Shown piece by piece: positions 2,244-24,017 of a stretch of 64,000 nt of DNA. Below the pieces are notes generated by a model. That model saw nothing but the letters and a program-made list of their open reading frames with translations, was not told the DNA's origin and searched no databases. The translations under genes were made by a program, and so were the position numbers. This stretch comes from an uncultured Eubacteriales bacterium (GTDB lineage Bacteria > Bacillota > Clostridia > Christensenellales > Aristaeellaceae), in assembly GCA_900540045.1 (NCBI GenBank), contig UQEF01000003.1:1-64000 (forward strand), given 5' to 3'. Each line of letters starts with the position of its first letter. Within the stretch, counting starts at the first letter, position 1.

Positions 2244-2246
2244 TAA

Positions 2247-3600: not shown

Positions 3601-3620
3601 TTATTACCTATTTTTAAAAA

Positions 3621-4163: not shown

Positions 4164-4317
4164 ATTAAAAACTCCCTTCGGACAATTTTGCCCTTTGTCT
4201 GATACATATTCAGCAAATTATTTGCAGTAATATTGTTTGATTCATACAGTTTTTTATACCGAAATTTTCTTTGGTGACATATTTTTACAGCATATAAAAA
4301 ATATAACTTTATCACGA

Positions 4318-4406: not shown

Positions 4407-4446
4407 TCGTAGATGAGTAATTTGCAAACGGTCAGAGGTGAGAATT

Positions 4447-5850
4447 TTGTTTATAGGCAGAAAGAATGAGCTTTTACAGCTTAACAGATTGTATAACAGC
4501 GGAAAATTTGAATTTGCCGTCATATACGGTCGCCGCCGTGTAGGAAAAACGGCTATCATAAACGAGTTTGTCAAGGATAAAAACGCAATTTGTTTCACAG
4601 GAGTTGAAACAAATGCAAAGCAAAATCTTGAAAATTTGAGCGAGTGCATTCTTGAATTTTCAACAGGAATGAAAACGGATACTGCTTTTTCAAACTTTCA
4701 GTCGGCACTTGAATATGTTTTTAAATTGTCAGAGAACAAAAGAATCGTCCTTTGCCTTGACGAATATCCGTATGTAGCAAGAGCGTCAAGAAGTCTTGCA
4801 TCAACACTGCAAATGTTAATTGACAAATATAAAGACAGTTCAAAGTTGTTTCTTATTCTCTGCGGTTCGTCAATGTCATATATGGAGGACCATGTGCTTG
4901 CATACAAAGCACCCTTGTATGGCAGAAGAACGGCTCAGTTTAAGATTTTGCCGTTTGAATTTTGCGAGGCTTGTGAGTATTTTAACGGAATGTCACCCGA
5001 AGATAAGGCACTTGCCTATGGGCTTGTGGGAGGTACACCGCAATATCTTTTGCAGATTAACAACAAAATTTCAATAGAGGATAATATAAAAAATATTTTT
5101 CTGAATCCTGTATCGGCTCTGTATGAAGAGCCTAACAATCTTTTGAAACAAGAGGTAAGAGAGCCGGCTATTTATAATGCCGTGATTACGGCAATTGCTA
5201 CGGGTGCATCAAAAATATCGGAGATTTCAACAAAGGTTGGAGAAACCTCAAGCACTTGTGTTGCTTATGTCAAGAATCTTGTTGCTCTCGGAATTGTGAG
5301 AAAAGAAGTGCCGTACGGTGAAAAATCCACGAAGAAAACAATTTATTCTATCGAGGATAATATGTTCAGATTTTGGTATCGTTTTGTGCCGGAAAATTCT
5401 TCGATAATTTCAAGAGGTGCGGTTGAACTTGCGTACAGTCGAATTGCACCGTATTTGTCGGATTATATGGGTGCTGTGTTTGAAGAAATCTGCAAGCAGT
5501 ATTTGTGGAAAAGATTGCTGAACGGTGATTCCGAAATTGATTTTACGGATATCGGCAGATGGTGGGGAACAAATCCAAAAACAAGACAACAGGAAGAAAT
5601 TGATATAATCGGCTCGGCAGATAAAAATACGGCTCTTTTTGGTGAATGTAAGTGGCGTAATGAAAGTGTTGACCTCGGTGTTCTTGAAACACTTGTTGAA
5701 CGCAGTAAGCTTTTTAATTTCGACAAAAAGCATTTTTATATTTTTTCAAAATCCGGTTTTACAAAGGGTTGCATTGATAAGGCAAATGAACTCGGAAATG
5801 TCAGCCTGATTGCTTATGATGATATTTTAAAATATAATAACAAAAATTAA
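4447..5850 (+). CDS. Archaeal-type AAA ATPase with C-terminal DUF234-like domain
   Basis: The 467-residue protein begins FIGRKNELLQLNRLY and has a Walker A motif, GRRRVGKTAI, around residue 30, then a Walker B-like LCLDEYPYVA near 105. A winged-helix-like region follows (KISEISTKVGETSSTCVAYV). The C-terminus is a DUF234/nuclease-like domain with FGECKWR, reminiscent of the ECK of restriction-type folds. Such ATPases are common in archaea and gut Clostridia; their role is unknown. I place the start at TTG 4447, seven bases after AGAGGTG; GTG 4438 lies within that site. The GC level matches its left-side neighbours. Confidence 0.8.
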   Translation: MFIGRKNELLQLNRLYNSGKFEFAVIYGRRRVGKTAIINEFVKDKNAICFTGVETNAKQNLENLSECILEFSTGMKTDTAFSNFQSALEYVFKLSENKRIVLCLDEYPYVARASRSLASTLQMLIDKYKDSSKLFLILCGSSMSYMEDHVLAYKAPLYGRRTAQFKILPFEFCEACEYFNGMSPEDKALAYGLVGGTPQYLLQINNKISIEDNIKNIFLNPVSALYEEPNNLLKQEVREPAIYNAVITAIATGASKISEISTKVGETSSTCVAYVKNLVALGIVRKEVPYGEKSTKKTIYSIEDNMFRFWYRFVPENSSIISRGAVELAYSRIAPYLSDYMGAVFEEICKQYLWKRLLNGDSEIDFTDIGRWWGTNPKTRQQEEIDIIGSADKNTALFGECKWRNESVDLGVLETLVERSKLFNFDKKHFYIFSKSGFTKGCIDKANELGNVSLIAYDDILKYNNKN

Positions 5851-5856
5851 ATCTAA

Positions 5857-5888
5857 AAATCCCCGTCGGAGAAATCTGACGGGGATTT
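5857..5888. terminator. Bidirectional terminator between convergent genes
   Basis: AAATCCCCGTC (5857-5867) pairs perfectly with GACGGGGATTT (5878-5888), between the + strand ATPase gene and the minus-strand cytX. Confidence 0.8.
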
Positions 5889-5905
5889 GACTTTGTTGTA
5901 AGCGA

Positions 5906-7102
5906 TTACGCTTTTTGGGATTTTGAAGTGATTTTATCTGCGATTTTGGTAACTATGACGCAGAGGATGATTGTGAAAACCATATCGGGCAAGGTGTTGC
6001 CGACGATAATGTCAACATTCATCAGAAAACGATATGCCGCAAAGCCTGCAAGCCATACTATGATGTTGCAGATGTCAACGGCTTTGCTTGCTCTGTCTTT
6101 TTTGAGAATGAAAAAGTCTGCAATCTGAATGGCAATCATCGGAGCAAATACCGAACCGATGAGATAGAGAAAATCGGTAATGTCATCCATAGGATAAACA
6201 ATTGCGGCGATTACACCTACTATTGTTACTGCAACGGCAACATATTTTCCTTTGAGTTTTGAGAAGATTGATTCGCTTGAAATGCCTGCCGAGTAAGCAT
6301 CAAGGAAGGTTGTTGTAACTGTTGAAAGAATTACAATTACAAGACCTGCAATGCTGAGTCCTGATTTAAGCATGATTTTTGCAATATCGCTTTCGCCTGT
6401 AAGGATAGACGCACTCATACCGATTATGTACATCCAACAGCTTACCGCACCGTAAACAAGTGTGCTTGCAAGAGTTGCCTTGAACGGCTTTTCCGCCTCT
6501 CTTGTGTAGTCGCTGATGAGCGGTAACCATGAAAGCGGCATTGCTACCGAAAGCTCAACTGCCGCACCGAATGACATTGAGTCATCGCCTGCCGCACCCA
6601 TACCGTTGCCGTTTCCGAAAATAAAGAAACACATCACGATTGTGAGAATGAACAGTGCCGCCATTGCGATTGTGTTGAGCTTGCCGAGGTTTGAAATGCC
6701 GACAAGAATCCAAAGTACAATCAATGCGCCGATTACGATACAGGCAATCCACCTGCCTGTATCGCCCATATTCAGAATACTGTTCACGGAAAGTGAGCCG
6801 TCATAAATCATAATGGCTGTCCAGCCGACAAGCTGAATAACATTGAGGACAGAGAAAAGAAGTCCGCCCTTGTTGCCAAAGCTCATTTTTACGGTTTCCA
6901 TTGAGCTTTTACGGCACTTACCGCCGATGAGTCCTGCACAAAAGAGCATTGCACATCCGATTATGTGCCCGATGATTACGGCTAAAATGCCCTTTTCAAA
7001 ACCTAACGGAGCAAAGTATGTACCTGTGAGAATTTCGGCGATTGAAACGCCTGCTCCGAACCATATCAAACTGTTTTCAAATACACTTGTCTGCTTTTTC
7101 AT
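5906..7102 (-). CDS. cytX: Putative hydroxymethylpyrimidine transporter CytX
   Basis: The 398-residue NCS1-family permease has about 12 hydrophobic segments and starts MKKQTSVFENSLIWFGAGVS. The WFGAGVSIAEI segment is the family's first helix. CytX is the NCS1 branch found in TPP-riboswitch operons, where it is assigned to uptake of the pyrimidine precursor HMP. That context is present here: it is the last gene of a riboswitch-controlled thi operon and overlaps the end of thiD by four bases. Substrate is inferred from context. It lies at the cell membrane. Confidence 0.85.
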   Translation of the reverse strand: MKKQTSVFENSLIWFGAGVSIAEILTGTYFAPLGFEKGILAVIIGHIIGCAMLFCAGLIGGKCRKSSMETVKMSFGNKGGLLFSVLNVIQLVGWTAIMIYDGSLSVNSILNMGDTGRWIACIVIGALIVLWILVGISNLGKLNTIAMAALFILTIVMCFFIFGNGNGMGAAGDDSMSFGAAVELSVAMPLSWLPLISDYTREAEKPFKATLASTLVYGAVSCWMYIIGMSASILTGESDIAKIMLKSGLSIAGLVIVILSTVTTTFLDAYSAGISSESIFSKLKGKYVAVAVTIVGVIAAIVYPMDDITDFLYLIGSVFAPMIAIQIADFFILKKDRASKAVDICNIIVWLAGFAAYRFLMNVDIIVGNTLPDMVFTIILCVIVTKIADKITSKSQKA

Positions 7103-7917
7103 TGCTCTGCCTCCGAATTTTCTTTTGTAAATTTACTTTGAATGTCAAAAGCGTGGTTCATGGGACCGCTGCCTTTGCCGAGGTCAAGCATTGCCGCAAG
7201 TGCGCCTGAAATATAATCCTTTGCACGCTTTACGGAAGCGTCAAGGTCAAAGCCTTTTGCAAGATTAGCGGCTATTGCACTTGAAAGTGTACAGCCTGTT
7301 CCGTGTGTGTTGGGATTGTTGATTCTTTTGCCGTTGTACCATGTGTAGGTGCCGTCTTTAAAGAGCAAATCGTTTGCATCGTTAATCTGATGTCCGCCCT
7401 TGCAGAGAACCGCACAACCGTACTTTTCGCTGATTATTTCAGCGGCTTTTATCATTTCTTCCTCATTTGAAATTTTCATTTCAGAGAGAACTTCCGCCTC
7501 CGGAATATTCGGTGTAAGAACTGTTGCAAGCGGAAAGAGATGCTCTTTGAGAGTGCTTACCGCCTCGTCGCTGATAAGCTTTGCTCCGCTTGTTGCCACC
7601 ATAACCGGATCGACAACAATATTTTTTGCATCGTACTTTTTCAGCTTGTCCGAAATTGTTTTTATAAGGCTTGATGAAGAAACCATTCCGATTTTTACGG
7701 CATCGGGATAAATATCCGTAAAGATACTTTCAAGCTGTTCACCCAGAAATTCGGGTGTAGATTCCATAATTGCCGTAACGCCGGTTGTGTTCTGTGCGGT
7801 AAGTGCGGTGATTGCGCTCATGGCATAAACACCGTTTGTTATCATAGTTTTGATATCCGCTTGAATACCGGCGCCTCCGCTGCAGTCACTGCCAGCGATT
7901 GTTAATGCTGTTTTCAT
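7099..7917 (-). CDS. thiD: Hydroxymethylpyrimidine/phosphomethylpyrimidine kinase
   Basis: ThiD phosphorylates HMP and then HMP-P to HMP-PP for thiamine synthesis. The 272-residue product starts MKTALTIAGSDCSGGAGIQA, the family's N-terminal signature, and has the C-terminal anion-hole/ATP motif GTGCTLSSAIAA. Length and motifs are those of a single-domain ThiD. It sits downstream of the HAD gene and overlaps cytX (ATGA), so transporter and kinase are translated together. Confidence 0.95.
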   Translation of the reverse strand: MKTALTIAGSDCSGGAGIQADIKTMITNGVYAMSAITALTAQNTTGVTAIMESTPEFLGEQLESIFTDIYPDAVKIGMVSSSSLIKTISDKLKKYDAKNIVVDPVMVATSGAKLISDEAVSTLKEHLFPLATVLTPNIPEAEVLSEMKISNEEEMIKAAEIISEKYGCAVLCKGGHQINDANDLLFKDGTYTWYNGKRINNPNTHGTGCTLSSAIAANLAKGFDLDASVKRAKDYISGALAAMLDLGKGSGPMNHAFDIQSKFTKENSEAEQ

Positions 7918-7943
7918 TTTAATCTCCTCTTTGCATTAATTTT

Positions 7944-8606
7944 TTACAGCGACAAAAGGTGGTGCCCCCAATCTGCCGCTTTTTCAAAGCTGTCTGCGTA
8001 GTAATCGCAAACGGCTTTTATTCTGTTTTTATCATTCCTGCTCGATTCGTCATACACTCCCACCGTTTTGAAACCTGCCTTGTGAGCAGTTTCTGCGGCA
8101 AAAACAGCGTCCTCGAATACAAGCGTTTCACTCGGAGCTGTTCCGAGTTTATCCGCACAGGCAAGGTAAATGTCGGGACTTGTTTTGCCTTTTCCGATTT
8201 GTGAACAGGTCACAATGTCCGTAAAATATTTTAGAATACCGAGCCTTTCAAATGCCTTTTTAATATGCGTTTTGTCGCTTGATGTTGCAATAATCATTTT
8301 GATATTGTTCGATTCCAAAAACTGCAAAATTTCTTTTGTACCGTTTTTTAAACCGACCTCATAAAAGTAAAAATCTTCAATGATTTTCAGCACACCCGAA
8401 ACTATTTCATCAGTTGAAAAGGAAAGAGCATACTGCTTTTTCATATACTCCGCACCCTCCGTCAGACTCATATCACAGAGCTTTTCGGAAAGTCCGTTTT
8501 CGGCTGTTTTGCCGACAGACGAGAGGTAACGCTCTCCTGCGTTATCCCATATCTTCATTGAATCGAGAAGTGTGCCGTCAACATCAAATATTGCAGATTT
8601 AATCAT
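7944..8606 (-). CDS. HAD-superfamily phosphatase in the thiamine operon
   Basis: The 220-residue protein starts MIKSAIFDVDGTLLDSMKIW with the DxDGT catalytic motif. Motif II is IIATSSDKTH, and motif III/IV is GKTSPDIY...VFEDA, as in beta-phosphoglucomutase-like HAD phosphatases with an inserted helical cap. Its ATG at 8606 lies within the thiE stop region (8-base overlap), which fixes the start and couples translation. Its place inside the thi operon suggests it acts on a thiamine intermediate such as thiamine phosphate, but the substrate is not shown by sequence. Confidence 0.85.
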   Translation of the reverse strand: MIKSAIFDVDGTLLDSMKIWDNAGERYLSSVGKTAENGLSEKLCDMSLTEGAEYMKKQYALSFSTDEIVSGVLKIIEDFYFYEVGLKNGTKEILQFLESNNIKMIIATSSDKTHIKKAFERLGILKYFTDIVTCSQIGKGKTSPDIYLACADKLGTAPSETLVFEDAVFAAETAHKAGFKTVGVYDESSRNDKNRIKAVCDYYADSFEKAADWGHHLLSL

Positions 8607-9243
8607 TCGCAATCGTCTTTTCCGTAAGTGCTTTAAGCTCTGCTGTTGCCTTTGTAATATCGGGCTGAGCGAAAATAGCACTGATAACGGCAATGCCTAC
8701 GATACCTCTGCCCTTGAGTTCCGTAACATTTTTGGAGCTGATTCCGCCGATTGCGATTACAGGAATGTCAACAGCCTCACAGATTTTCTGAAGTTCATCG
8801 TGTGAAACATCGTCTGCATCGTCCTTTGAGCCTGTTTTGAAAACTGCTCCGACTCCGAGATAATCTGCTCCGTGCTTCTGAGCAAGAAGAGCCTGTTCAA
8901 CAGTCTGAGCCGAAACACCGATGATTTTGTCGTCACCGAGAATCTTGCGGACATTGCCTGCCTCCATATCACTCTGACCGACATGAACACCGTCAGCGTC
9001 AATTTTTTTTGCAATTTCAACATTGTCATTGATTACGAAAGGAACATTATACTTTTTGCAGAGTTTCTGAATTTCAAGAGCTTCTTCAAGAAAATGCTTT
9101 TGGTCAAGATTTTTTTCTCTTAACTGAATGAATGTTGCGCCGCCTTTAATAGCTTTTTCAACCTGACTGCAAAGTGTTTCACCGTTAAGCCATGCCCTGT
9201 CGGTTACGGCATAGAGCAACAAATCTTTTTTATCGCAATTCAT
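8599..9243 (-). CDS. thiE: Thiamine-phosphate synthase
   Basis: ThiE joins HMP-PP and thiazole phosphate to make thiamine phosphate. The 214-residue product starts MNCDKKDLLLYAVTDRAWLN. It carries the pyrophosphate-binding QLREKN motif, VINDNVEIAKKIDADGVHVG with the Mg-binding aspartates, and a C-terminal phosphate-binding AIGGIS. The ATG at 9243 follows AAAGGAG and lies 14 bases inside the end of thiM. Confidence 0.95.
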   Translation of the reverse strand: MNCDKKDLLLYAVTDRAWLNGETLCSQVEKAIKGGATFIQLREKNLDQKHFLEEALEIQKLCKKYNVPFVINDNVEIAKKIDADGVHVGQSDMEAGNVRKILGDDKIIGVSAQTVEQALLAQKHGADYLGVGAVFKTGSKDDADDVSHDELQKICEAVDIPVIAIGGISSKNVTELKGRGIVGIAVISAIFAQPDITKATAELKALTEKTIAND

Positions 9244-10051
9244 ACTTTGCTCCTTTTTCAAGTGTTTCGGCATCCATATTATAGATAGCGTCAATAATTC
9301 TGTTGCGGTATGTTGAGTTGCCGTCTGTTTCTGCCATATTTGCAAAAGCGATTTCACCTGCAAGTCCCATTGTACAAACTGCTGCGGCAGTTGCCTCAAG
9401 AACATTGTCGGGGTTTGCAACGATAAATGCAGTTGTCATACCCGAAAGCTGACAGCCTGTTCCTGTGATTTTGCTCATCTCGGGACGACCGTTGCGGATT
9501 ACATAGCACTTTTCGCCGTCACTTACAAGGTCAATAGCGCCTGTGATTGCAATTACGCATCCCGACTTTTTGGCATAATTCTTTACAAATGCAACTGCGT
9601 TATCGAGATTTTCTTCTGTTACCGCATCCGATACATCGGCATCAACACCCTTTGTTGTGCCGCTTCCGAGTGCAAGAGTTTTGATTTCCGAGATGTTACC
9701 TCTGATAACATCAAATTTGATTTCTTTTGCAAGCTTAACCGCTGTGTCTGTGCGGAGCTTGCTTGCGCCTGCGCCGACAGGATCAAGCAGAATCTTGTGA
9801 GAAAGTTCATTAGCTTTTTTGCCCGCAATGAACATACCCTCAATTGAGTTTTTGTTAAGTGTACCGATGTTGATGTTAAGACCGCCGCAAATGCTTGTGA
9901 TGTCGGCAACATCATCGGGTTCGTCTGACATAATCGGACTTCCTCCGCAAGCGAGAAGTACATTTGCAACATCGTTTACTGTTACATAGTTTGTGATGTT
10001 GTGTACAAGCGGTACATTTTTTCTTACATTTTCAAGACAATTTCCAATCAT
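9230..10051 (-). CDS. thiM: Hydroxyethylthiazole kinase
   Basis: ThiM phosphorylates the salvaged thiazole (THZ) for use by ThiE. The 273-residue protein has the family's VPLVHNITNYVTVND start region, LLDPVGAGASKLR, and the C-terminal ATP/anion motif ITGTGCQLSG. The ATG at 10051 is preceded by AAAGGAG. It is the first gene after the TPP riboswitch. With thiD, thiE and cytX but no thiC or thiG seen in the window, the operon reads as a salvage route. Confidence 0.95.
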   Translation of the reverse strand: MIGNCLENVRKNVPLVHNITNYVTVNDVANVLLACGGSPIMSDEPDDVADITSICGGLNINIGTLNKNSIEGMFIAGKKANELSHKILLDPVGAGASKLRTDTAVKLAKEIKFDVIRGNISEIKTLALGSGTTKGVDADVSDAVTEENLDNAVAFVKNYAKKSGCVIAITGAIDLVSDGEKCYVIRNGRPEMSKITGTGCQLSGMTTAFIVANPDNVLEATAAAVCTMGLAGEIAFANMAETDGNSTYRNRIIDAIYNMDAETLEKGAKYELR

Positions 10052-10069
10052 AGCGGATTCTCCTTTATA

Positions 10070-10106
10070 AAAATAAAACGGACACACCAACAAAAGGTGT
10101 GTCCGT
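10070..10106 (-). terminator. Riboswitch expression-platform terminator
   Basis: On the minus strand ACGGACACACC (10106-10096) pairs with GGTGTGTCCGT (10088-10078), followed by TTTTATTT. Lying between aptamer and thiM, it would stop transcription when TPP is bound. Confidence 0.85.
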
Positions 10107-10115
10107 AAAGGCTCG

Positions 10116-10203
10116 CTGTTTCCCTCCGTTGGCATTATCCAAATCAGGTCATAGGTCGAGGCATTCAGCCTCCTCTCAGCCGACTAACTTGTCAGCTCCC
10201 TTA
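10116..10203 (-). promoter_or_regulatory. TPP riboswitch (THI element)
   Basis: The minus-strand RNA contains the conserved parts in order: GGGAGC...CTGAGAGGAGGCT, then GACCTATGACCTGATTTGG, then GGATAATGCCAACGGAGGGA. These are the J2/3, P4/P5 and P1-closing elements of TPP aptamers. The downstream hairpin at 10078-10106 makes it a transcriptional OFF switch for thiM-thiE-HAD-thiD-cytX. Confidence 0.96.
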
Positions 10204-10208
10204 CTTAT

Positions 10209-10237
10209 AATATACAATTTGTGTCGTAATTTGTCAA
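10209..10237 (-). promoter_or_regulatory. Promoter of the thiamine operon
   Basis: Minus-strand TTGACA (10237-10232) and TATATT (10214-10209) with a 17-base spacer, immediately upstream of the riboswitch. Confidence 0.75.
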
Positions 10238-10348
10238 TGAAAACTTGACAAATAGTCACCGAGAACGATTATACGAATCTATCCTCAGTAAAATCTTCTG
10301 TATTCAGTATATCTTTTATGTAAAAAAACACTGATTTTTAAATATCAG

Positions 10349-10377
10349 TTGACTTGAAGAAGAAAAAACAGTACAAT
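10349..10377 (+). promoter_or_regulatory. Promoter of the zinc-ribbon protein gene
   Basis: TTGACT (10349-10354) and TACAAT (10372-10377) are 17 bases apart, about 85 bases upstream of the ATG. Confidence 0.65.
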
Positions 10378-10461
10378 AAAAATAAACAGATAATATGGTT
10401 GAATTTGCTGTTGTAAAGGGGTTTTCCTCGAATTTATTTTTTGTTGAACAGGAGAAAAAGT

Positions 10462-11298
10462 ATGTTTTGTAAAAATTGCGGAAGACAGTTATTGCCTAAT
10501 GAAAAGTTTTGTGCCGATTGCGGAGCGCCTGTACCCGTACAGGAATCAGCTGCACAGAACGAACAGCCGATTGCAGAAAATCAGTCGGTTGAACAGACTG
10601 CCGATATGAATGTTCAAAATGAGCAGACACAGCCTGTTGAAAATCATCAGACTGACGCATATAATCAGATGCCTGCAAATGATTATTCCGCACCGCAGTA
10701 TCAGACAGTTAATGCACAGGGCGGATATAATCAGTATCAGAACGGTCAGCAGGGCGGATATTCTTATGATTATAACAATCAGGGCGTTCAGCCACAGTAT
10801 GCACAGCCGATTCCAAAGAAAAAGTCAAAGACACCGTTTATAATTACAGCGTGCGGCATTGCGGTTGCACTCGTTGTTGCAATTGCGGCATTCTTTATAT
10901 TTAACGGACTTAACAAAGCCACTCCTCAGGGACAGATTCAGGGTACATGGATTGCCGAGGAGGATGGAGTAAGCCTACAACTTGAGTTCAAGCCTGACGG
11001 AACAATCGGTATCCCGAATGCAAAAGAACTCGGCGAACTTATTTCAAGTTATGCCGGCAGTTCCGATTACGGCGATTTAATAAACTATGATGAGATTTTT
11101 AATTTGATTGATATGAAGTACAGCATTGATGATGAAAAAACTCTTTCAATCAGCCTTGAGGTTTCTTTTGTAAATCAAAGTCAGTCGCAGTCACTCAAAT
11201 GGTCTGACGATCCCGCAAACGGCGGTTCGGATACATGGGGAATCGACGGCGATACTCTCTACATAGCCGGCACAAAGCTGACAAGAATCAATAACTGA
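10462..11298 (+). CDS. Zinc-ribbon membrane protein with C-terminal lipocalin-like domain
   Basis: The 278-residue protein has three parts. Residues 1-25 are a zinc ribbon (CKNCGR...CADCGA). Residues 30-120 are a Gln/Asn/Tyr-rich low-complexity linker. A single membrane segment follows a KKKSK stop-transfer patch near residue 120. The outer domain contains GTWIAEEDGVSLQLEFKPDG, resembling DUF5640-type lipocalin-like domains of gut Clostridia. The start at 10462 has GGAG at normal spacing. Function is unknown; the layout suggests a membrane-anchored extracellular domain with a cytoplasmic zinc finger. Confidence 0.75.
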   Translation: MFCKNCGRQLLPNEKFCADCGAPVPVQESAAQNEQPIAENQSVEQTADMNVQNEQTQPVENHQTDAYNQMPANDYSAPQYQTVNAQGGYNQYQNGQQGGYSYDYNNQGVQPQYAQPIPKKKSKTPFIITACGIAVALVVAIAAFFIFNGLNKATPQGQIQGTWIAEEDGVSLQLEFKPDGTIGIPNAKELGELISSYAGSSDYGDLINYDEIFNLIDMKYSIDDEKTLSISLEVSFVNQSQSQSLKWSDDPANGGSDTWGIDGDTLYIAGTKLTRINN

Positions 11299-11325
11299 TA
11301 TTGTCTTAAAAAATTCGTAAAAAAC

Positions 11326-11356
11326 AAGGTCACGGTTCAAAATCGTGACCTTTTGT
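11326..11356 (+). terminator. Terminator of the zinc-ribbon gene
   Basis: AAGGTCACG (11326-11334) pairs with CGTGACCTT (11344-11352), followed by TTTGTTG. Confidence 0.75.
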
Positions 11357-11532
11357 TGTGTGAAATATACGGGCTCTGTCAAAGAGATTTCGTCGTTGTC
11401 CGATGAACGATACTGTATGACAATCATTTTGTGTTTTTAGATAATTCGATTTATCACAAAATTTGTGTGCTTACTTGCGGGCAGATGATATCCGCCCCTT
11501 CGAGCCCCTTGTTTGGCAAAAAAATTTGTAAA
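11353..11532. other. Intergenic stretch at the end of the AT-rich part
   Basis: No ORF with a ribosome site and no structured RNA recognised. It is the last clearly AT-rich non-coding stretch before the tRNA array. Confidence 0.5.
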
Positions 11533-11561
11533 ATAAAAAAACCAGTACATCAACTGTACTG
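11533..11561 (-). terminator. Terminator of the tRNA operon
   Basis: On the minus strand CAGTAC (11561-11556) pairs with GTACTG (11548-11543), followed by GTTTTTTATTTT. It lies seven bases after tRNA-Gly and has the AT-rich character of the left part. Confidence 0.7.
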
Positions 11562-11567
11562 ATTTAA

Positions 11568-11643
11568 TGGAGCGGATGACGGGGCTCGAACCCGCTACCT
11601 CCACCTTGGCAAGGTGGCGCTCTACCAGATGAGCTACATCCGC
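11568..11643 (-). tRNA. tRNA-Gly (GCC)
   Basis: Minus-strand cloverleaf GCGGATG/CATCCGC acceptor, anticodon loop TTGCCAA (anticodon GCC), T-loop GTTCGAGCC, encoded CCA. It is last in a four-gene array. Confidence 0.95.
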
Positions 11644-11650
11644 ATTTTAT

Positions 11651-11726
11651 TGGTGCCTCCGGGCGGAATCGAACCACCGACACGGGGATTTTCAGTCCCC
11701 TGCTCTACCGACTGAGCTACAGAGGC
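11651..11726 (-). tRNA. tRNA-Phe (GAA)
   Basis: Minus strand; acceptor GCCTCTG pairs with the 3' CGGAGGC; anticodon loop CTGAAAA (GAA); T-loop GTTCGATTC; encoded CCA. Seven bases separate it from tRNA-Gly. Confidence 0.95.
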
Positions 11727-11732
11727 AAAAAT

Positions 11733-11809
11733 TGGCGACCCGGAACGGGTTCGAACCGTCGACCTCTAGCGTGACAGGCTAGCGTTCTAACCAACTGAAC
11801 TACCGGGCC
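11733..11809 (-). tRNA. tRNA-Asp (GTC)
   Basis: Minus strand; 5' GGCCCGG with 3' CCGGGTC; anticodon loop CTGTCAC (GTC); T-loop GTTCGAACC; encoded CCA. Confidence 0.95.
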
Positions 11810-11814
11810 AAATG

Positions 11815-11890
11815 TGGTGGGAACAACAGGGCTCGAACCTGTGACCCTCTGCTTGTAAGGCAGATGCTCTCCCAGCTGAGCTATGCTCCC
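11815..11890 (-). tRNA. tRNA-Val (TAC)
   Basis: Minus strand; 5' GGGAGCA with 3' TGTTCCC; anticodon loop CTTACAA (TAC); T-loop GTTCGAGCC; encoded CCA. First gene of the array. Confidence 0.95.
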
Positions 11891-11932
11891 CAACCTTTGC
11901 CGCATCGCTCCGCGACCGCGGCGACGTGTAAT

Positions 11933-11961
11933 ATCATAACGCGAGATCGCTGTTTTGTCAA
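11933..11961 (-). promoter_or_regulatory. Promoter of the tRNA operon
   Basis: Minus-strand TTGACA (11961-11956) and TATGAT (11938-11933) with a 17-base spacer, about 40 bases before tRNA-Val. It is embedded in GC-rich sequence, unlike the terminator at the other end of the operon. Confidence 0.75.
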
Positions 11962-12433
11962 TACGCAAAAACCAAAAATCCGAAATTTTTCTGCCGCGAT
12001 CTGGAAACGGAACATCCTGTAGGATTTGTGTAACATTTACCCGGGGCGGGTACAGGAATTTGCCCGGGAGGGCAGGGATGGGGGGTGACAGGTCAACAAG
12101 CCCCCAGATCTGGCGGAGCCGGATTGCGAAGCGGGTCCGGCAAGACGGCGGGCGGCGCGCGGCAGCTTCGGAGATGTAATGCCGGCGTAACAGAATTGAA
12201 ATGCTGTTATCAGGAAAAACAATGAATCGTGCAAGCGTTTGCATCATGATAGAAGAGCTTTCATTTTGTGTAATTCAGCGAAAAACTTTTTTTCACAGCA
12301 GGCAGGAGGCGGAGAAAGGTGGAAGAAATGCGCCGGTCTGACGTGAATCGGTGAAATGGCTGACTGCGGGCTTGCGTCAAGGCGTAACAAAGAGCTGGTT
12401 TTATGCCCAAAAACGGTTCAAATCGCCAGACTG
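11962..12433. other. Long intergenic region upstream of spo0A
   Basis: About 470 bases of GC-rich sequence without a convincing gene. It holds G/C-rich self-complementary stretches around 12,040-12,110 (for example CCCGGGG and CCCGGGAG), which could be structured RNA, but no known family is recognised. No Spo0A box or spoIVB remnant was seen. Confidence 0.45.
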
Positions 12434-14024: not shown

Positions 14025-15722
14025 TTAGCGGAAGCGCTTACGAAGCCCCGCGCACAGCAGCCCGGCACCCAGCAGCGCCGCCAGCAGCACCACGGACCAG
14101 AGCAGCGGATGGGCGCTGTCGCCGGTCTTGGGGGGCGCTGTAGGCGCAGGGGCGGGTGTGGGCGTAGGCGCAGGCGCGGGCGTGGGCGTAGGCGCAGGCA
14201 CGTCCTCACGCGCGCCGCAGACCGTGCAGACACCGTTCACAAACGCATGGGCTTTCATTTCAATGTTTGCGACTTTTTTGTCAGTATACTCTGCTCCATC
14301 GAACGTTACCTTCGCCGTGTATGTAGTCTCGCCCGTTTCGGTGCAGGTGGGCACTTTTGTCACTTCGGAGGTGATCGTGGCCGTGACCTTTTCGGTATGA
14401 GTCCCGTCCTTTGTGCATGTGAACGTTGCTTCGGCAACGGTGACGCCAGTCCATGTCCATACAGGGTTGCCGTATGTGTGGGTATGCGTCGTCACGGGAT
14501 TCTCCTTTACCACGTCGCCGTTTACGCTCACGTTGCCGCCGCCGCTGTTTGATACGATAACGCCGTCAGGCACGTTTGTGAGGTCAATGCTGCCTTTTTT
14601 AACGGTTATCTGATCGCCTTTGCCGGCTGCGGCTGCTTTTTCGGCTATTGAATCACCGAAAACATATTTTGTTGAGCCGCCGGACGTGATTGTCGCAAAC
14701 GCGGCATCTTCGTTTGCATAGGTGCTTACGTCTTTATTAAACGTACCGCCGGTTACATCGACCGTTGGTGTACCGTTACTGCCTTTTCTGATAGCATATG
14801 ATTTGCCTGTTATATCGCCGCCTGAGATCTGGACGTTCGCATTATCGTATGCATAAACCGCCGTACCGCCACTGATCGTGCCGCCCTCAATATTGACTAC
14901 ACTCGACTCGCGTGCGTAAACAGCATATCTGGATCCGGAGTCAGTCGTAATGCTGCCGCCGGTTACATTGAGTTCAACAACGCCGTATCCGCTCTGCGTA
15001 GATATTGCAGTACTGGTTTGTGAATATATATTGGCATCTCCCGATACGTTTATGACGGCTCCGCTGTAAGCCTGTATGGCCTGAGATTTAGCCTCTATCG
15101 TGCCGCCTGTCATATTGATCTTGATCGCATTATCATTGTCGCCGCTTATGTACATGGCGAGCCTGTTGCCGGGAAACGCCGAAACCTTACCACCGCTGAT
15201 ATTTACCACGACGTTTGATTTGCCGCGGATACCGAATGTGTTATCAGCATCGCCTCTGACGCTGCCGCCGTTCATCTCAACGAGCACGTTCGACGCCGAT
15301 GTGTATATGTCGATGACGGAACCCTTCGGAGATGTGACGTCTCCGCCGTTAAACACGAACTTAGAATCGCTCATAAGCTTGAACGGGTAACTGCTCGTTA
15401 TCGAGCCGTTGCCCTTTGAATCGCCTACCGTGAGCGAACCGTTACTTTTGATTGTAAACAATGCGTTTGAACTTTCGTTCTCGCGCTCGAGAGCGAATCC
15501 GTTGAGGTCTATCTCTACGGATTTTCCGGAAATTACAAAACTTTGAGTTTGCGGTAAGGTGATGTCGGCGGTAAGCGTTACCGTGCCGCCTTCTTTAACC
15601 GCTTTTATGAAAGCGTCTGCCGTGCCTACATCCGCGGCGAGCGCCACCTGATCCGCGGGCAGAGCGATGAGCAGCGCGCACAGCAACGTGGCGCAGGCCA
15701 GCCAGGTGATTCTTTTGCGCAT
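14025..15722 (-). CDS. Secreted beta-helix surface protein with PPKTG sorting signal
   Basis: The 565-residue protein has a signal peptide (MRKRITWLACATLLCALLIA). Roughly residues 40-390 are short repeats with xGGxI/V periodicity (GGTISGG, GGDITG, SGGKVSA), typical of a right-handed parallel beta-helix. An Ig-like segment follows (TFTCTKDGTHTEKV), then a (PTPA)n spacer. The end is a sorting signal: PPKTG at 530-534, a hydrophobic helix and a basic tail (RKRFR). Sortases cleave such signals and link the protein to the wall. The start at 15722 follows GGGAGAGGGAG. The helical part is visibly less GC-rich than the ends, so it may be a mosaic. Confidence 0.8.
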   Translation of the reverse strand: MRKRITWLACATLLCALLIALPADQVALAADVGTADAFIKAVKEGGTVTLTADITLPQTQSFVISGKSVEIDLNGFALERENESSNALFTIKSNGSLTVGDSKGNGSITSSYPFKLMSDSKFVFNGGDVTSPKGSVIDIYTSASNVLVEMNGGSVRGDADNTFGIRGKSNVVVNISGGKVSAFPGNRLAMYISGDNDNAIKINMTGGTIEAKSQAIQAYSGAVINVSGDANIYSQTSTAISTQSGYGVVELNVTGGSITTDSGSRYAVYARESSVVNIEGGTISGGTAVYAYDNANVQISGGDITGKSYAIRKGSNGTPTVDVTGGTFNKDVSTYANEDAAFATITSGGSTKYVFGDSIAEKAAAAGKGDQITVKKGSIDLTNVPDGVIVSNSGGGNVSVNGDVVKENPVTTHTHTYGNPVWTWTGVTVAEATFTCTKDGTHTEKVTATITSEVTKVPTCTETGETTYTAKVTFDGAEYTDKKVANIEMKAHAFVNGVCTVCGAREDVPAPTPTPAPAPTPTPAPAPTAPPKTGDSAHPLLWSVVLLAALLGAGLLCAGLRKRFR

Positions 15723-15806
15723 AACAGTTTCTCCCTCTCCCTTTTCCTTTCGCAGCAAGCCTACATGTTTGTAGGGCCTGTGCTTCTAGAAATTTTCTCA
15801 GGCCTG

Positions 15807-18906: not shown

Positions 18907-19845
18907 TTATTCGTGCGGCTGGCTGGCCCGCTTCCGGCCAAGCCGGCTCCAGAAGCCGAAGGTCATGGGCCACAGCACGCCGCCCGCAAGCGCGATGCAC
19001 AGGTAGCGTACGCCGTCGGCAAAGGGCGCCTCGCCAAAGAGCGCGGCCAGCGCCGCCTTAAGACCCACGCGCACGCCCATCACCAGCGCAAGGCCCAGTA
19101 CCAGCTTGAGTGCCTGCGCCCACCATACGGCGCGGGTGTCAAAATGCAGCCGGCACCGGTCCGCATACCAGGCGGCCAGCAGGCCCAGCATGGTGCCAAA
19201 GAGCGTCCATGCGCTTTCTACGCCATGTGCGTCAAACTCGGCCACGTTCCCCGCCCGCTTGGGCCAAAGCAGCACGTAGAGCAGCAGAACCAGCGCAAAC
19301 CCCAAGAGGCCGGCTCCCAGCCACCGCCGGCCGTGCGCGGATGCCTCCGCGCGGTCAAACAGACGGGGCATCACCGCCACCGTGGCCGCGCCCGTGAGCA
19401 GCGACACGCCCACATCCAGCGGCGTATGCACGCCCAGATACATGCGCGAAAAGGCCACCGCCAGAATGCCCAGCACGCACAGGACGGTAAAGACCCGGTC
19501 GCGCACCCACAGGGCCAGCATGCCCAGCACGCAAGCGGCGGACTGTGTGTGCCCGCTGGGGAAGGAATAACCCGTCGCGCCCGCGCGGGCCGCCTCGACG
19601 ATGGTAAACTCCGGGGCGATCACCCAGGGGCGGGGGATGAGGAACACCGCCTTGAGCAGCTGGTTGAGCACTGTGCCTGTCAGCCCCACAAACAGCAGAC
19701 GGAATCCCCAGCGCTTGTCGAAGCACCACACCAGCGCAAGCCCCACCAGCATAAAGAAGGTTTCCTCGCCCAGCAGGGTCACGGCGGCGGCCACCTGATC
19801 CCAAAACGGGGTGCGGATGGACTCCAGCATCTTTAGAAACGTCAT
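18907..19845 (-). CDS. PAP2-family membrane phosphatase
   Basis: The 312-residue membrane protein has the three PAP2 motifs: KAVFLIPRP (KxxxxxxRP), SFPSGHT (PSGH) and SRMYLGVHTPLDV (SRxxxxxHxxxD). These form the active site that removes phosphate from lipid phosphates such as undecaprenyl pyrophosphate or phosphatidate. The C-terminal half adds more membrane segments, making it longer than minimal PAP2 enzymes. Its ATG overlaps the stop codon of the degenerate ABC ATPase gene (ATGA), so it is the fourth gene of the two-component operon, which hints at an envelope-related output. Confidence 0.88.
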   Translation of the reverse strand: MTFLKMLESIRTPFWDQVAAAVTLLGEETFFMLVGLALVWCFDKRWGFRLLFVGLTGTVLNQLLKAVFLIPRPWVIAPEFTIVEAARAGATGYSFPSGHTQSAACVLGMLALWVRDRVFTVLCVLGILAVAFSRMYLGVHTPLDVGVSLLTGAATVAVMPRLFDRAEASAHGRRWLGAGLLGFALVLLLYVLLWPKRAGNVAEFDAHGVESAWTLFGTMLGLLAAWYADRCRLHFDTRAVWWAQALKLVLGLALVMGVRVGLKAALAALFGEAPFADGVRYLCIALAGGVLWPMTFGFWSRLGRKRASQPHE

Positions 19846-21341
19846 GGCAATTCCTCCTGTTGATGATCGGGAACGGCCCGATACAGACTGCGCCAGGGCG
19901 CATCGGCAGGCAGCTCGCTAAAGCGCACGCGGTCGAATGCCTCCTGAGGCTGCCCGTGTCTGACGCGAATCAGGCGGTCAGCCAGGGAGAGCGAGTCCGC
20001 CAGATTCACCGCCAGAATCACCACCGCCACGCCCCGGTCCAAAAGCTCCTCCAGCAGCCGCCAGATGCTCATGCGCAGGGCCACATCCGCCATGCGGAAG
20101 GGCTGCACGCAGAATACCACGTCCGGACGCTGCAGCAGGATGCGGCGGTATACCAGCTCGCAGCGCTCGGCTTCGGTCAGATCTTCCACCCGGCGGTCCA
20201 GCAGGTCCTCCCCAAGCCACTCGGCATAGGCGCGGCGCAGACCCCGCTTCACCCTGCCGCTTCGCCACAGCGCCTTCATGCGGTGGTCCATGGTGAAACA
20301 GAGATTTTCCAGATAATTGAGCCCCGGAAATACCATTGTGCGGCCCGGCTGATCCTGGATGACCGCCAGACGGCGGTCGTGCCCCGGCCGGAAGGGCCGC
20401 CCGCAGAGCAGCAGGCTGGTTTCCTGTGCGGGATGTGTCCCCGACAACACCCCCAGAAAGCCGTCGATGAAATGATTGTCCAGATCCTGCAACACCAGGC
20501 ATTCGCCCGCCCGCACCGAGAAGCGCAGGCCCCCGGCCGCGGCATCCGGCAGCAGGGCGCTGAAAACCTCCCCGCCGATCGGGTGCGCGCCTCGCGCCAG
20601 CTGGCTGGCGACCATCTGCTCATAGGCGGCGGAGTAGGGCAACAGCGACTGGGGAATCATCTCTTCGCCCTCCAGCAGCTTCACCACGCGGCCCTGCATC
20701 ATCACGGCGGTACGGTCGCTGATTTGCAGCAGCTCCTCAAAATGAAAACATACGTACAGGAAGGAGATGCCCTCTGCTGCGTAGTGGCGGAGGATGGCGT
20801 GCAGCTTGCCAAGCTCGGCTTCATTGATGAGGGTGCTGATTTCATTGAGCACGATCAGCCGACTGCCGGCCACCACAGCCTTGAGCAGCTCCACCACAAA
20901 GCGCTCGAATACGGAAAGGTCCTCCACGCGCGCGTCCGCGTCGATGGGGATGCCGACGCTGCGGATAAACGGCGCCAGCTGCCGCCGGAAAGCGGCCGGG
21001 CGCATCAGCCGCCCGCGAAACCCGGGACGAAGCACAAAGATGTTGTCCGCGACGCTCAGCCCGTCCACCAGACAGCTCTTGGCCTGAATGATGCTGATGC
21101 GGTTGTAGTGCGGCTGGGGGGAGCGCCAGGTGTTGATCAGCTTTTCCCGGTAGAACACATAGCCATAGTGCAGGGGCAGGTTTTCACGCAACAGATCACA
21201 CAGAGCGGTCAGGCCATGGGTGTCGATGGGCACCAGCCCCAGGATCTCGCCCTCGAAGATATGCAGGTTCAGGTTGTCCAGCTGGGTTACGCCCCGCTCT
21301 CGGAGGGTTACCTTTTCCAGTCGAAGCACTTCGTTTCTCAC
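19842..21341 (-). CDS. Degenerate sugar-ABC-type ATPase (pseudo-ATPase) in a two-component operon
   Basis: The 499-residue protein has the double-domain layout of RbsA/MglA sugar importers, but the catalytic motifs are gone. Where Walker A (GxxGxGKST) should be, residues 35-47 read GLVPIDTHGLTAL. The signature LSxGQ reads DLSVFERF (141-148). Walker B has Asn for Asp: RLIVLNEIS (161-169). The second half likewise has LVLQDLDNHFIDGFLG in place of a P-loop. Fold landmarks persist (YVCFHFEELLQISDR). No permease or sugar-binding protein is nearby. It overlaps the kinase gene (ATGA) and the PAP2 gene. It probably acts as a binding or regulatory partner, not a transporter motor; this is inferred. 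Confidence 0.75.
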   Translation of the reverse strand: MRNEVLRLEKVTLRERGVTQLDNLNLHIFEGEILGLVPIDTHGLTALCDLLRENLPLHYGYVFYREKLINTWRSPQPHYNRISIIQAKSCLVDGLSVADNIFVLRPGFRGRLMRPAAFRRQLAPFIRSVGIPIDADARVEDLSVFERFVVELLKAVVAGSRLIVLNEISTLINEAELGKLHAILRHYAAEGISFLYVCFHFEELLQISDRTAVMMQGRVVKLLEGEEMIPQSLLPYSAAYEQMVASQLARGAHPIGGEVFSALLPDAAAGGLRFSVRAGECLVLQDLDNHFIDGFLGVLSGTHPAQETSLLLCGRPFRPGHDRRLAVIQDQPGRTMVFPGLNYLENLCFTMDHRMKALWRSGRVKRGLRRAYAEWLGEDLLDRRVEDLTEAERCELVYRRILLQRPDVVFCVQPFRMADVALRMSIWRLLEELLDRGVAVVILAVNLADSLSLADRLIRVRHGQPQEAFDRVRFSELPADAPWRSLYRAVPDHQQEELP

Positions 21342-22351
21342 ACAAGCGCCTCCCGGTTGGGAATGTCACGGTCGCTGGCGATCATGGGCAGGGTGATTTC
21401 CACATCCGTGCCCACGCCCGGCGTGGAAAAGGCGTGCAGGCCGTACTTGTCGCCAAAGAGCAGGCGGATGCGGCTGTCCACGTTGGCCAGCGCCAGTCCG
21501 CCCCGGCTTTGAGGCGGCTGGACGATGGCGCTTTTCCCCAGACGCTCGTTGAGGCGCAGCAGGGTTTCGGCATCCATGCCCACCCCGTCGTCCGATATGC
21601 GGATGAGCAGGCGCTTCTGCGTGCGCTCCAGCTGAATGCGGATGTGCCCCGTGCCCAGTTTCAGCTCCGTACCGTGGATGATGCTGTTTTCCACAATGGG
21701 CTGGATGGTCAGCTTGGGCAGGCGGCAGCGATAGATCGCCTCGCGGTCGGCGGGGTCACAGCTGATGTGCAGCTCCAGCCGGTCAGCGAAGCGGTAGCGC
21801 TGAATATGGAAATAGGTTTCGCAGTTCTGCAGCTCTTCCTCCACGGATACCAGGTTTTCCACCTTGCTGATGGTGTAGCGGAAAAACGTAGCCAACGCTT
21901 CGGTCATGTCGGCGATGGTGTCCATCCCGGACAAAAGCGCCTCACCCCGGATGCTTTCCAGCGTGTTATACAGGAAATGCGGATTGATCTGGTTTTGCAG
22001 GGCCTGGTACTGGGCCTGCCGCTTGTTGAGGGTGAAGAGCTGTTCGGGGTTGAGGATGGCGGCCACCTGCTCCTGCAATCGCGCCTGCGCGGGGGACAGG
22101 GCACAGGCGGCATCCTGACGCGGAGGTGTGTATCCCTCCAGAAACATCAGCATGGCCCGTTCCTGCGCCAGGTAGGGGCGGACCACACACAGCCAGGCCA
22201 CGGCCCCCAGCCCGGCCGCGGCGCACAGCAGCAGCGCGGCGGCAAGCGGCTCGCGCCCTGTCAGCAGGGCTGCGGCTGCCACCAGCGCCGCCAGGGCCGC
22301 CGTGCCCAGCACGCCCACACGAAAGGAAAGCATTCGCCAGCGTCGTTTCAT
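21338..22351 (-). CDS. LytS/YesM-type sensor histidine kinase without extracellular sensor
   Basis: The 337-residue kinase has two hydrophobic segments (about residues 10-30 and 36-56) separated by only a few residues, so there is no room for the usual outer sensor domain. The phospho-accepting His125 lies in NQINPHFLYNTLESI, the signature of the His_kinase (PF06580) family. The ATPase part has PIVENSIIHG (N box) and DDGVGM (G1 box), with GGLALANVDSRIRLLFGD near the end. It is 12 bases after the YesN regulator gene and overlaps the degenerate ATPase gene. Input may come through a partner protein. Confidence 0.9.
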   Translation of the reverse strand: MKRRWRMLSFRVGVLGTAALAALVAAAALLTGREPLAAALLLCAAAGLGAVAWLCVVRPYLAQERAMLMFLEGYTPPRQDAACALSPAQARLQEQVAAILNPEQLFTLNKRQAQYQALQNQINPHFLYNTLESIRGEALLSGMDTIADMTEALATFFRYTISKVENLVSVEEELQNCETYFHIQRYRFADRLELHISCDPADREAIYRCRLPKLTIQPIVENSIIHGTELKLGTGHIRIQLERTQKRLLIRISDDGVGMDAETLLRLNERLGKSAIVQPPQSRGGLALANVDSRIRLLFGDKYGLHAFSTPGVGTDVEITLPMIASDRDIPNREALV

Positions 22352-22363
22352 GCGCTCGCCTCC

Positions 22364-23935
22364 TCAGCCGTAGAGCTTGCGGTACTGGGCGGGGCTCAAA
22401 CTGGTGTATTTTTTGAAGATCTGCGTAAAGTGCTTGAGGTCGCTGTAGCCCACCCGCGCGCATACTTCCGTCACGGGCAGGCTGCTTTCCTGCAAAAGCT
22501 CCTTGGCATGCTCCATGCGAACGCCCGTGAGATACTTGGAAAACCCTTCGCCGCTTTCCTTTTTGAACAGCGCGCTGAAATAACTGACACTGAACCCTGT
22601 GGCGGCGCAAACGTCCTCCAGGGTGATGGACTGGCTGTAATGCTCCTGCACATACTGCTTGGCGATGCGGATAGGACGGAGCGCCTCGCTGCGGCGGCGG
22701 ATATCCTCGGCTTCCATGTGCTTTTTTTCAAAGCGGATCAGGCAGTCGAACAGCTCGTCCGCCCGGCTGGAAAGGCCCGCTTCATGCGCAAAGGCCGCCT
22801 CCTCTCCGCCATCAAGCCCAAGGCGCAGGGCAAACAGGCTTCCTGCCGAACGCACCAGCTCCGTCAGCTCATACCCGCGCACGCCGGGAAACTCCATCGC
22901 CTCGCGTGCCAGGGCGTTGGTACAGTCCACCGCAAGGCCCGTATCCAACGTGGAGAGGGCCTTTTCAATCTCATGGCCGTAGCGCTCCAAAAGGCGGGCA
23001 TCCCGCAGCCCGGAGGGAGCGGCCATGCCCTCCAACAGGCGTCCTGTGCCCTCCAGCAGCCGCTCATCGATCAGCTGGCCGGCCTGACGCACCAGCGCGG
23101 GAAGCCGGGCGGGGGAGGAAGCGGCCTCGCTCAGCGACAGCGAAAACGACACGGGACCCAGCAGTCCTTTCTGGGCTTCCAGCTGGTTGAGCACCTGACG
23201 CAGCGCGCGCCGCACATCCGCCTGCGCGTCGGGCAGGGCGCAGACCACACCGGTGAGCCGGTCCTCATCGTGGGCGCAGGCAAGCTCTACCTCGGGCAGG
23301 GCCATGAGCGGGGCGATCAGCTCGCGCGCCTTGCCATGAATAATCTCCAGCGCCTCGCGGCCCAACCCACGATGATCCAGCTTGAACACAAAGGCCCGGT
23401 ACGTACCGCCCGGCAGACCGAATCCATAGATCCGTGCCAGATCGTCCGCCGCTTCGGGAAAAGCCCGCCCTGACACGGCCTCCCGCACCAGCTTTTCCCG
23501 AAGCGCCGCCCTGGCCCGTCCCTCGCCGTCATGCGCAGCAGCGGGATCGCCGGGATGCTTTGCGTAGCAGCGTTGAGCCAGCTTGGACAGGGTGGCGGTC
23601 AGCTCGTCCTTTTTGATGGGCTTGAGCAGATAGTCGCCTACGCCCAGCTTGATCGCGGTCTGCGCGTACTCGAAGTGCGCGTAGCCGCTGATAATGATGA
23701 TTTCGATATCGGGAACGGTCCTTCGGGCCCTTTCGATCAATTCGAGCCCCTGGCAGCCCGGCATGCGGATGTCGGTGATGAGGATATCCGGCCGCTCACG
23801 TTCGATCAGCGCCAGCGCTTCCAGCCCGTTTCCCGCCGTACCGGCTACCTCGATGCCCAGTGCGTCCCAGTCGGGAAGCAGGCGGATCAGGCTCAAAATG
23901 CGCGCTTCATCGTCGGCAATTACCACCTTGAGCAC
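22364..23935 (-). CDS. YesN-type response regulator with AraC output domain
   Basis: The 523-residue protein begins (GTG)LKVVIADDEARILSLIRLL. Its receiver domain has the phospho-acceptor Asp55 in ILITDIRMPG and KP in LLKPIKKDEL. A roughly 280-residue middle region follows. The C-terminus is an AraC/XylS helix-turn-helix pair ending GYSDLKHFTQIFKKYTSLSP. It is the partner of the kinase just downstream. I chose the GTG at 23935 because AGGAGGG lies directly upstream; the longer ATG form would span that site. Confidence 0.9.
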   Translation of the reverse strand: MLKVVIADDEARILSLIRLLPDWDALGIEVAGTAGNGLEALALIERERPDILITDIRMPGCQGLELIERARRTVPDIEIIIISGYAHFEYAQTAIKLGVGDYLLKPIKKDELTATLSKLAQRCYAKHPGDPAAAHDGEGRARAALREKLVREAVSGRAFPEAADDLARIYGFGLPGGTYRAFVFKLDHRGLGREALEIIHGKARELIAPLMALPEVELACAHDEDRLTGVVCALPDAQADVRRALRQVLNQLEAQKGLLGPVSFSLSLSEAASSPARLPALVRQAGQLIDERLLEGTGRLLEGMAAPSGLRDARLLERYGHEIEKALSTLDTGLAVDCTNALAREAMEFPGVRGYELTELVRSAGSLFALRLGLDGGEEAAFAHEAGLSSRADELFDCLIRFEKKHMEAEDIRRRSEALRPIRIAKQYVQEHYSQSITLEDVCAATGFSVSYFSALFKKESGEGFSKYLTGVRMEHAKELLQESSLPVTEVCARVGYSDLKHFTQIFKKYTSLSPAQYRKLYG

Positions 23936-24017
23936 AGCGTACCCTCCTTTCCAAAGCATGCATCATTTGGCATTTCAGTATAGCATATACGGCAGGGAAT
24001 GACAAATCACGGGCAGC

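Follow-up and report, generated by a model that had tools for sequence, protein, structure and literature searches.

A conserved RbsA-like protein without catalytic motifs as a candidate link between a sugar importer and a minimal YesM-type kinase in clostridia

Described sensors and the operon in question

In clostridial sugar sensing, an outside binding protein reportedly serves as the third component of XylFII-LytS-YesN. The system considered here is built differently. It is a four-gene operon in a 64,000-nucleotide stretch from an uncultured Eubacteriales bacterium (assembly GCA_900540045.1, contig UQEF01000003.1, positions 1 to 64,000), called the window throughout, in which a YesN-type response regulator and a LytS/YesM-type histidine kinase are followed by a double ATP-binding cassette (ABC) protein, here called pABC, that resembles the importer ATPase RbsA and has lost its catalytic motifs. 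We propose, with a probability of about 0.57, that an RbsABC-type importer is monitored by a sensor of three proteins, the regulator, the kinase and pABC, and that pABC couples the state of the importer to the kinase.

In CuaD-CuaS-CuaR, too, a membrane kinase and a regulator govern a sugar ABC importer together with a third protein that derives from importer components; that protein, however, is an extracellular binding protein docked on the outside domain of CuaS, which has 627 residues (PMC10384115). The kinase of the window, in contrast to those of CuaDSR and XylFII-LytS, is 337 residues long and lacks an outside domain, and the third protein is a dead double ATPase of the cytoplasm. The likeness to BceAB-BceRS is of another kind. 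There, a two-helix kinase without an outside domain receives its signal from an ABC transporter, but the sensor there is that transporter with its functional ATPase, an antimicrobial peptide serves as substrate, and BceS carries a HAMP domain (PMC10314905 and PMC7828314). In the pABC module the kinase has its dedicated partner in a separate, dead ATPase, and the importer belongs to the RbsABC type; the neighbours found in relatives are an RbsA-like ABC protein, a BPD_transp_2 permease and a Peripla_BP_4 binding protein and not a BceAB-type transporter. A clostridial kinase adjoining an ABC operon is mentioned in PMC3899296. Among titles and the beginnings of abstracts, in open-licence PMC text, no description of an ABC ATPase that is dead and has such a role in sensing was found. 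To our knowledge, few bacterial pseudo-ATPases of the ABC class have a dedicated role in signalling.

A conserved family without catalytic motifs

pABC is encoded on the minus strand at positions 19842 to 21341 (open reading frame, Pfam, alignment, AlphaFold2 and Foldseek) and has two nucleotide-binding domains (NBDs). Relatives were obtained from a genome contig scan, and the best 80 of 109 places, named L001 to L080, form the sample to which all counts out of 80 refer. The 81 pABC proteins (80 loci plus the window) were aligned with 62 full-length RbsA-like frames that carry Walker A and come from the same loci. The alignment confirmed what the sequence-only reading had claimed for the window, the loss of Walker A in both halves, of the signature and of the Walker B aspartate. 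Where RbsA has GENGAGKST, the first half reads PIDTHGLTA (residues 38-46, positions 21204 to 21230, minus strand like all segments of the gene); the second Walker A is lost at residues 286-294 (20460 to 20486), and Walker B of the second half is VVFCVQ in place of VVIFDE (residues 408-413, 20103 to 20120), within VVFCVQPF, with DLTEAERCEL at the signature. A local defect of the window protein was rejected because the loss of motifs is fixed in all 81 aligned members. The Walker A pair, K44 with S/T45, occurs in none of them (K44 alone in 12). Neither S-G-G at 389-391, the second-half signature, nor D412 is found in any pABC, whereas both are present in 62 of 62 RbsA-like proteins. Position 413, invariably Glu in the 62, is Gln in 73, His in 5, Lys in 2 and Ser in 1, and Glu in 0 of the 81. 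The first-half Walker B Asp-Glu persists in 8 of 81. Walker A, signature and Walker B are not combined in either NBD, as they are in at least one NBD of an RbsA-type importer ATPase, and from its motifs pABC probably does not bind ATP.

The protein is homologous to the RbsA/XylG/AraG importer ATPases but differs from them by the absence of catalytic motifs, by scores far below the family cut-off and by the presence of a separate intact ATPase that serves the importer. Of the NCBIfam models it matches NF010069 (xylose ABC ATP-binding protein) best, with 121.9 bits against a cut-off of 699, and Pfam recognizes ABC_tran in the first half only (34.7 bits, cut-off 25). The AlphaFold2 model nevertheless has the single-chain double-NBD fold (predicted local distance difference test score, pLDDT, 87; predicted template modelling score 0.84), and seven of its top eight Foldseek matches are DppD/OppD peptide importer chains (top TMq 0.69), which we take to be double NBDs. 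Residues that are conserved in pABC and absent from RbsA, such as H200, C281 and Q413, stand in or near the old motifs. The least decayed of the 14 motif regions compared is LSVADNIFVLR (residues 95-105, 21027 to 21059), the segment that follows the first Q-loop, with 50% RbsA-consensus cells versus a background of 21%; in ABC importers in general this is the side expected to contact the permease. The segment after the second Q-loop comprises residues 341-352 (20286 to 20321).

In a protein search with the window pABC, 2500 of 7996 scored candidates passed E <= 0.001, a set whose tail may include ordinary RbsA; among the 120 best of the 2500 matches, 36 are at least 59% identical and 84 are 48-54% identical. 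Titles of the locus records are clostridial or Firmicutes where they name a group. Each of the 80 loci contains exactly one ABC protein without Walker A, which scores 342-1026 bits against the window pABC, while the Walker-A-bearing frames (63, in 62 of the 80 loci) score 65-102 bits, so that no relative above 150 bits carries Walker A. Close homologues with intact Walker motifs, which the sequence-only reading had named as evidence against itself, thus failed to appear. The stop marked within the pABC match of genomes G044 and G072 is residue 489, the natural end of the protein. pABC is a conserved family of its own and not a wreck. At two further places, L113 and L114, a short kinase of the YesM type, scoring 288-291 bits with the kinase profile, adjoins a double ABC protein that has diverged strongly and retains no usable Walker motifs; in L113 the ABC gene lies on the strand opposite to the kinase. 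The pABC family may therefore extend beyond the profile.

The kinase as the constant partner

The kinase gene (21338 to 22351, minus strand; open reading frame, Pfam, alignment, AlphaFold2 and motifs) encodes a minimal enzyme of the LytS/YesM type. Pfam recognizes His_kinase (PF06580) and HATPase_c, the H-, N- and G-boxes are present and no HAMP domain was reported. The claim that an extracellular loop is nearly absent is borne out by an AlphaFold2 model of moderate confidence (mean pLDDT 73), in which two N-terminal helices, residues 8-30 and 35-71, are joined by a link of four residues. An alignment of 18 kinases leaves no space for an outside domain, and in 79 kinases 111-201 residues (median 128) precede the H-box. 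The predicted topology is hence the two-helix form without an outside domain, as in Bce; an extracellular kinase domain to which a solute-binding protein binds, as in the XylFII-LytS type, is lacking in both model and alignment. A kinase of this kind therefore needs another source of its signal. The regulator upstream (22364 to 23935, minus strand; open reading frame, Pfam and motif) combines a REC domain with a GGDEF_2-like and an AraC helix-turn-helix domain (Response_reg, GGDEF_2 and HTH_AraC in Pfam), retains the phospho-acceptor motif LITDIRMP and makes the pair one of the YesM/YesN type. Its start is GTG, the frame being open from an ATG at 23959.

In the window the order on the minus strand and the gaps of 12, -4 and -4 bases between regulator, kinase, pABC and PAP2 phosphatase genes agree with the tight four-gene coupling described earlier. 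Among the relatives, neighbourhoods were labelled with phmmer for kinase and regulator, and importer labels were spread from Pfam-scanned representatives. The kinase lies at most 550 bp upstream of pABC in 78 of the 80 loci, with a gap of at most 20 bp in 70, and the regulator lies just upstream in 77. The misses concern contig ends (L034, L035, L067) and one exception, L022, where a 376-aa frame intervenes. An absence of conserved synteny with the kinase, which would have spoken against the earlier reading, did not occur.

Co-occurrence was determined in 291 genomes from the class of genome G006. With the kinase profile 12 matches of at least 394 bits were obtained before the scores drop to 291; all 12 kinases adjoin pABC, with one of the cases truncated at a contig end. 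The pABC profile marks exactly these genomes: in 11 the match scores 353-745 bits and in the twelfth, a fragment at a contig end, 226. Its best other match, at 227 bits, is of the intact RbsA type. The permease profile also marks 12 genomes, of which 11 are shared with the kinase and pABC genomes (Fisher's exact p = 5e-18 for permease versus kinase, not corrected for kinship).

Co-evolution was estimated by partial rank correlations of plain distance matrices, with bootstrap intervals, over the 59 loci that contain all six genes. The value for pABC and kinase, 0.57 (0.45-0.64), equals that of RbsA and RbsC (0.57), a known kind of complex that served as a yardstick; kinase and regulator reach 0.38. 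Adjacency alone is not enough for 0.57 because the neighbours permease and solute-binding protein, and solute-binding protein and regulator, attain 0.23 and 0.17. pABC and the solute-binding protein gave -0.05.

The importer and the repeat in front of it

The sequence-only reading had stated that no permease or binding protein is near, which holds for the lineage of the window and fails for the family. In 60 of 80 loci an intact RbsA-like ABC protein, an RbsC-type permease (PF02653) and a Peripla_BP_4 binding protein are encoded on the same strand, usually in the order RbsA-RbsC-binding protein-regulator-kinase-pABC; in L070, L071 and L073 to L078 the sensor genes come first (regulator-kinase-pABC-RbsA-RbsC-binding protein). 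Of the 20 loci without an importer, 13 have less than 7 kb of upstream sequence; the others are L001, L004, L017, L044, L048, L059 and L080. An ordinary permease partner had been named beforehand as evidence against the earlier reading, and it did turn up, both in the 60 loci and, unlinked, in the group of the window. We take it to favour the proposed docking of pABC because the importer has its own intact ATPase and needs no pABC to run. What is supported is the broader claim that a conserved pseudo-ATPase goes together with a YesM-type kinase of short loop and with a sugar importer.

The group of the window was defined by pABC similarity and consists of the window, L001 (Candidatus Limiplasma pullicola, 90% identity to the window pABC) and L002 (uncultured Eubacteriales bacterium, 89%), the closest loci. 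In tblastn searches none of the importer genes of relatives was found in the whole window, where 18.9 kb and 40 kb flank the operon, nor is there an importer within 10 kb in L001 or on the 9.3-kb contig of L002. The profile of the permease associated with the triad has a single match per genome in seven genomes, including G001 (that of L001) and G002 (that of L002), at 609-654 bits, the next match reaching at most 181. In G001 and G002 this cognate permease sits in an rbsA-rbsC-binding protein operon with ROK and SIS genes upstream, on a contig other than that of the sensor genes. By analogy with these relatives, the importer of the window's own genome probably also lies elsewhere.

The importer promoter regions share a repeat. 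An expectation-maximisation search of up to 300 bp upstream of the importer rbsA, in 56 non-redundant regions of which one came from the group of the window, returned the motif AAAAAACCCCCC.TAAA.C.AAA with a log-likelihood of 583 versus 99-112 in three shuffles. It has the form of a direct repeat, AAAA-n-CCCC, with C-blocks about 21 bp apart. At least 15 bits were scored by 55 of 63 importer regions; in 59 of 63 the best site lies 75-141 bp ahead of the assigned start codon, and in 56 of 63 sites a second C-block follows the first after 18-28 bp, most commonly 21 (29 of 56), at a background of 8% of 11-mers. With a model from 24 loci, none of 78 regulator upstream regions reached 12 bits. Under this model the unlinked importers of the window's group, L173 in G002 (one of 39 held-out regions treated below) and L204 in G001 (outside the 39), each score 26.2 bits, and the exact core pattern occurs once each in G001 and G002, at the importer promoter, with one more place in G001 at one mismatch. 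No such operator was found ahead of the window's own operon: with the full model the best score in the whole window is 10.3 bits and the regulator upstream regions of the window, L001 and L002 score below 0 bits, and with the model from 24 loci the best score in the window is 7.3 bits. The regulator is the likely binder of the repeat, through which it would activate rather than repress.

The nature of the sugar is suggested by enzymes encoded near pABC, D-lyxose isomerase in 20, ROK in 17 and PfkB in 13 of the 80 loci, which suggests a rare hexose or pentose. The importer proteins tested fall below every curated cut-off shown; two importer ATPases score 592 and 608 bits against the RbsA model (cut-off 745), and the best match of the L173 binding protein is a ribose-type binding protein at 110 bits. 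The binding protein beside the module exceeds 560 aa in 28 of 80 loci, L006, L013, L026 and L061 among them, and is a tandem Peripla_BP_4 pair in four Pfam-scanned loci. A gene of 633-653 aa lies directly downstream of pABC in L016, L021, L029 and L037; in L037 Pfam identifies it as the fusion of a ROK kinase with a mannose-6-phosphate isomerase domain, which hints at what sugar is handled. In L023 the module is followed, about 2.1-10.3 kb from the start of pABC, by the genes of another sugar system, which comprises binding proteins, a kinase, a regulator, a Walker-A-bearing ABC protein and two permeases.

How pABC may act

In the model we favour, pABC, a dead RbsA-like ATPase, would be the fixed partner of the kinase and most likely would also rest on the RbsC permease of the importer, at the place of RbsA. 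pABC would convey the state of the permease, occupied by the binding protein with or without sugar, to the kinase, which itself lacks a sensing domain on the outside. The kinase would then phosphorylate the YesN-type regulator, and the regulator would bind the direct repeat ahead of rbsA and switch on the importer. pABC most likely carries the state of the importer because it is the constant partner of the kinase and resembles a protein that reads the state of an RbsC permease. In the group of the window, the importer would have left the neighbourhood of the sensor genes and a PAP2 gene would have been gained, with the operator staying with the importer. As importer and sensor genes lie apart there, co-regulation can be told from mere membership in an operon. 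The physical contacts of pABC, the direction of the signal and the identity of the sugar are what we infer from these data, and the permease step is the part of the mechanism that we hold most loosely. A tentative extension, which we hold less likely than not, is that pABC occupies some RbsC dimers in place of RbsA and thereby creates a transport-dead copy of the importer that acts solely as a sugar receptor and is connected on the inner side to the kinase without a sensor domain, so that one permease and one binding protein would serve both uptake and sensing.

Several observations weigh against the model. The co-evolution of pABC and permease is weak, 0.18 (0.09-0.28), and no stronger than that of pABC and regulator, 0.16 (0.07-0.26), and the interval for pABC and RbsA includes zero (0.10, -0.06 to 0.23). 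The 62 RbsA-like proteins were picked by Walker A, so their intact Walker A is given by construction, which does not apply to their signature and Glu. In the co-occurrence sample 5 to 7 candidates were scored per genome, a limit on its counts; G284 has the permease without pABC, and G030, a fragmentary contig-end genome, has kinase and pABC without the permease. The held-out test of the operator used a model from 24 loci picked among good scorers, and some of its 39 test loci are close kin; 27 of the 39 importer upstream regions reached at least 12 bits and 12 remained below. One of 18 whole loci of unrelated RbsA reaches 14.6 bits, and 10 of 780 shuffled regions reach at least 12 bits, the highest 27.8. 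The short exact pattern occurs in 31 of the 291 genomes; it is not specific alone because 28 of these lack the module (3 have it) and the reversed control occurs in 27, and it was rejected as too loose for genome-wide use.

The strength of the pABC-kinase correlation beside the weakness of the pABC-permease correlation would also be expected if pABC bound only the kinase and sensed a cytoplasmic sugar or sugar phosphate through its emptied nucleotide sites, with the permease outside the sensor. The family-specific residues H200, C281 and Q413 in or near the old motifs and the sugar enzymes near many loci agree with this explanation. A purely soluble receptor, however, would have no need for the segment expected to face the permease, which is the most RbsA-like of the compared regions, and we regard the explanation as unlikely, though worth keeping in mind. 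It is more doubtful still that pABC is a brake on transport, competing for the permease against RbsA as a decoy and throttling uptake, with its linkage to the kinase due to no more than shared regulation. Its double-NBD fold, its RbsA-like length, the retained segment after the Q-loop and the cognate permease in 11 of 12 pABC genomes would suit a decoy; the tightest genetic and evolutionary link of pABC is nevertheless to the kinase, even where the importer is elsewhere.

The PAP2-family phosphatase at the end of the operon (18907 to 19845, minus strand; Pfam and motifs) had been regarded as the membrane-side output of the signalling module. It retains its catalytic motifs (K-x6-RP, PSGH, SR-x5-H-x3-D), its gene overlaps that of pABC by four bases, and L001 and L002 have the same neighbourhood. 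In the other 78 of the 80 loci, however, some of them cut by contig ends, no PAP2 gene lies within four genes of pABC, and the predicted operator precedes the importer and not the PAP2 operon. The output function is thus not supported and the full earlier model very improbable; PAP2 was rejected as a core part of the module and is a passenger, an addition to the operon in the group of the window only. That pABC is a decayed RbsA, or the product of a sequencing or assembly fault, can be dismissed, as nothing beyond the missing motifs speaks for it and it is already refuted by the long open frames conserved in 80 loci, besides the 120 best protein matches at 48% identity or more, the family's own conserved residues and the confident fold.

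Other features of the window

A sigma-70-like promoter, TTGTCA-17-TATACT and a TG just ahead of its second hexamer, is predicted by consensus match only in front of the operon (23977 to 24005, minus strand); consensus matching found two promoter-like sites in the region versus 0.9 expected. A role in defence was rejected, as the kinase alone gave a signal, a weak 2TM match, and so were plasmid-borne copies, the best among 1503 plasmid records being only 26.8% identical. Positions 1-12000 of the window have a G+C content of 0.35-0.44 and every 2-kb block to the right 0.53-0.69; the step adjoins a tRNA cluster (11568-11890), with thiamine-type genes on its left side, and the low-G+C part may be an island or a chimeric assembly join. 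The product encoded at 14025-15758 is repetitive, has a sorting-like end (PPKTGD) and a hydrophobic helix at its C-terminus, and is probably secreted.

Implications

The pABC module offers a testable answer to the question of how sugar could be sensed by YesM-type kinases that lack an outside domain. Some genes of gut clostridia annotated as sugar ABC transporter ATP-binding proteins may be regulators. If the model is true, it would reveal an unrecognised way to sense sugar from inside the cell, present in many gut clostridia.

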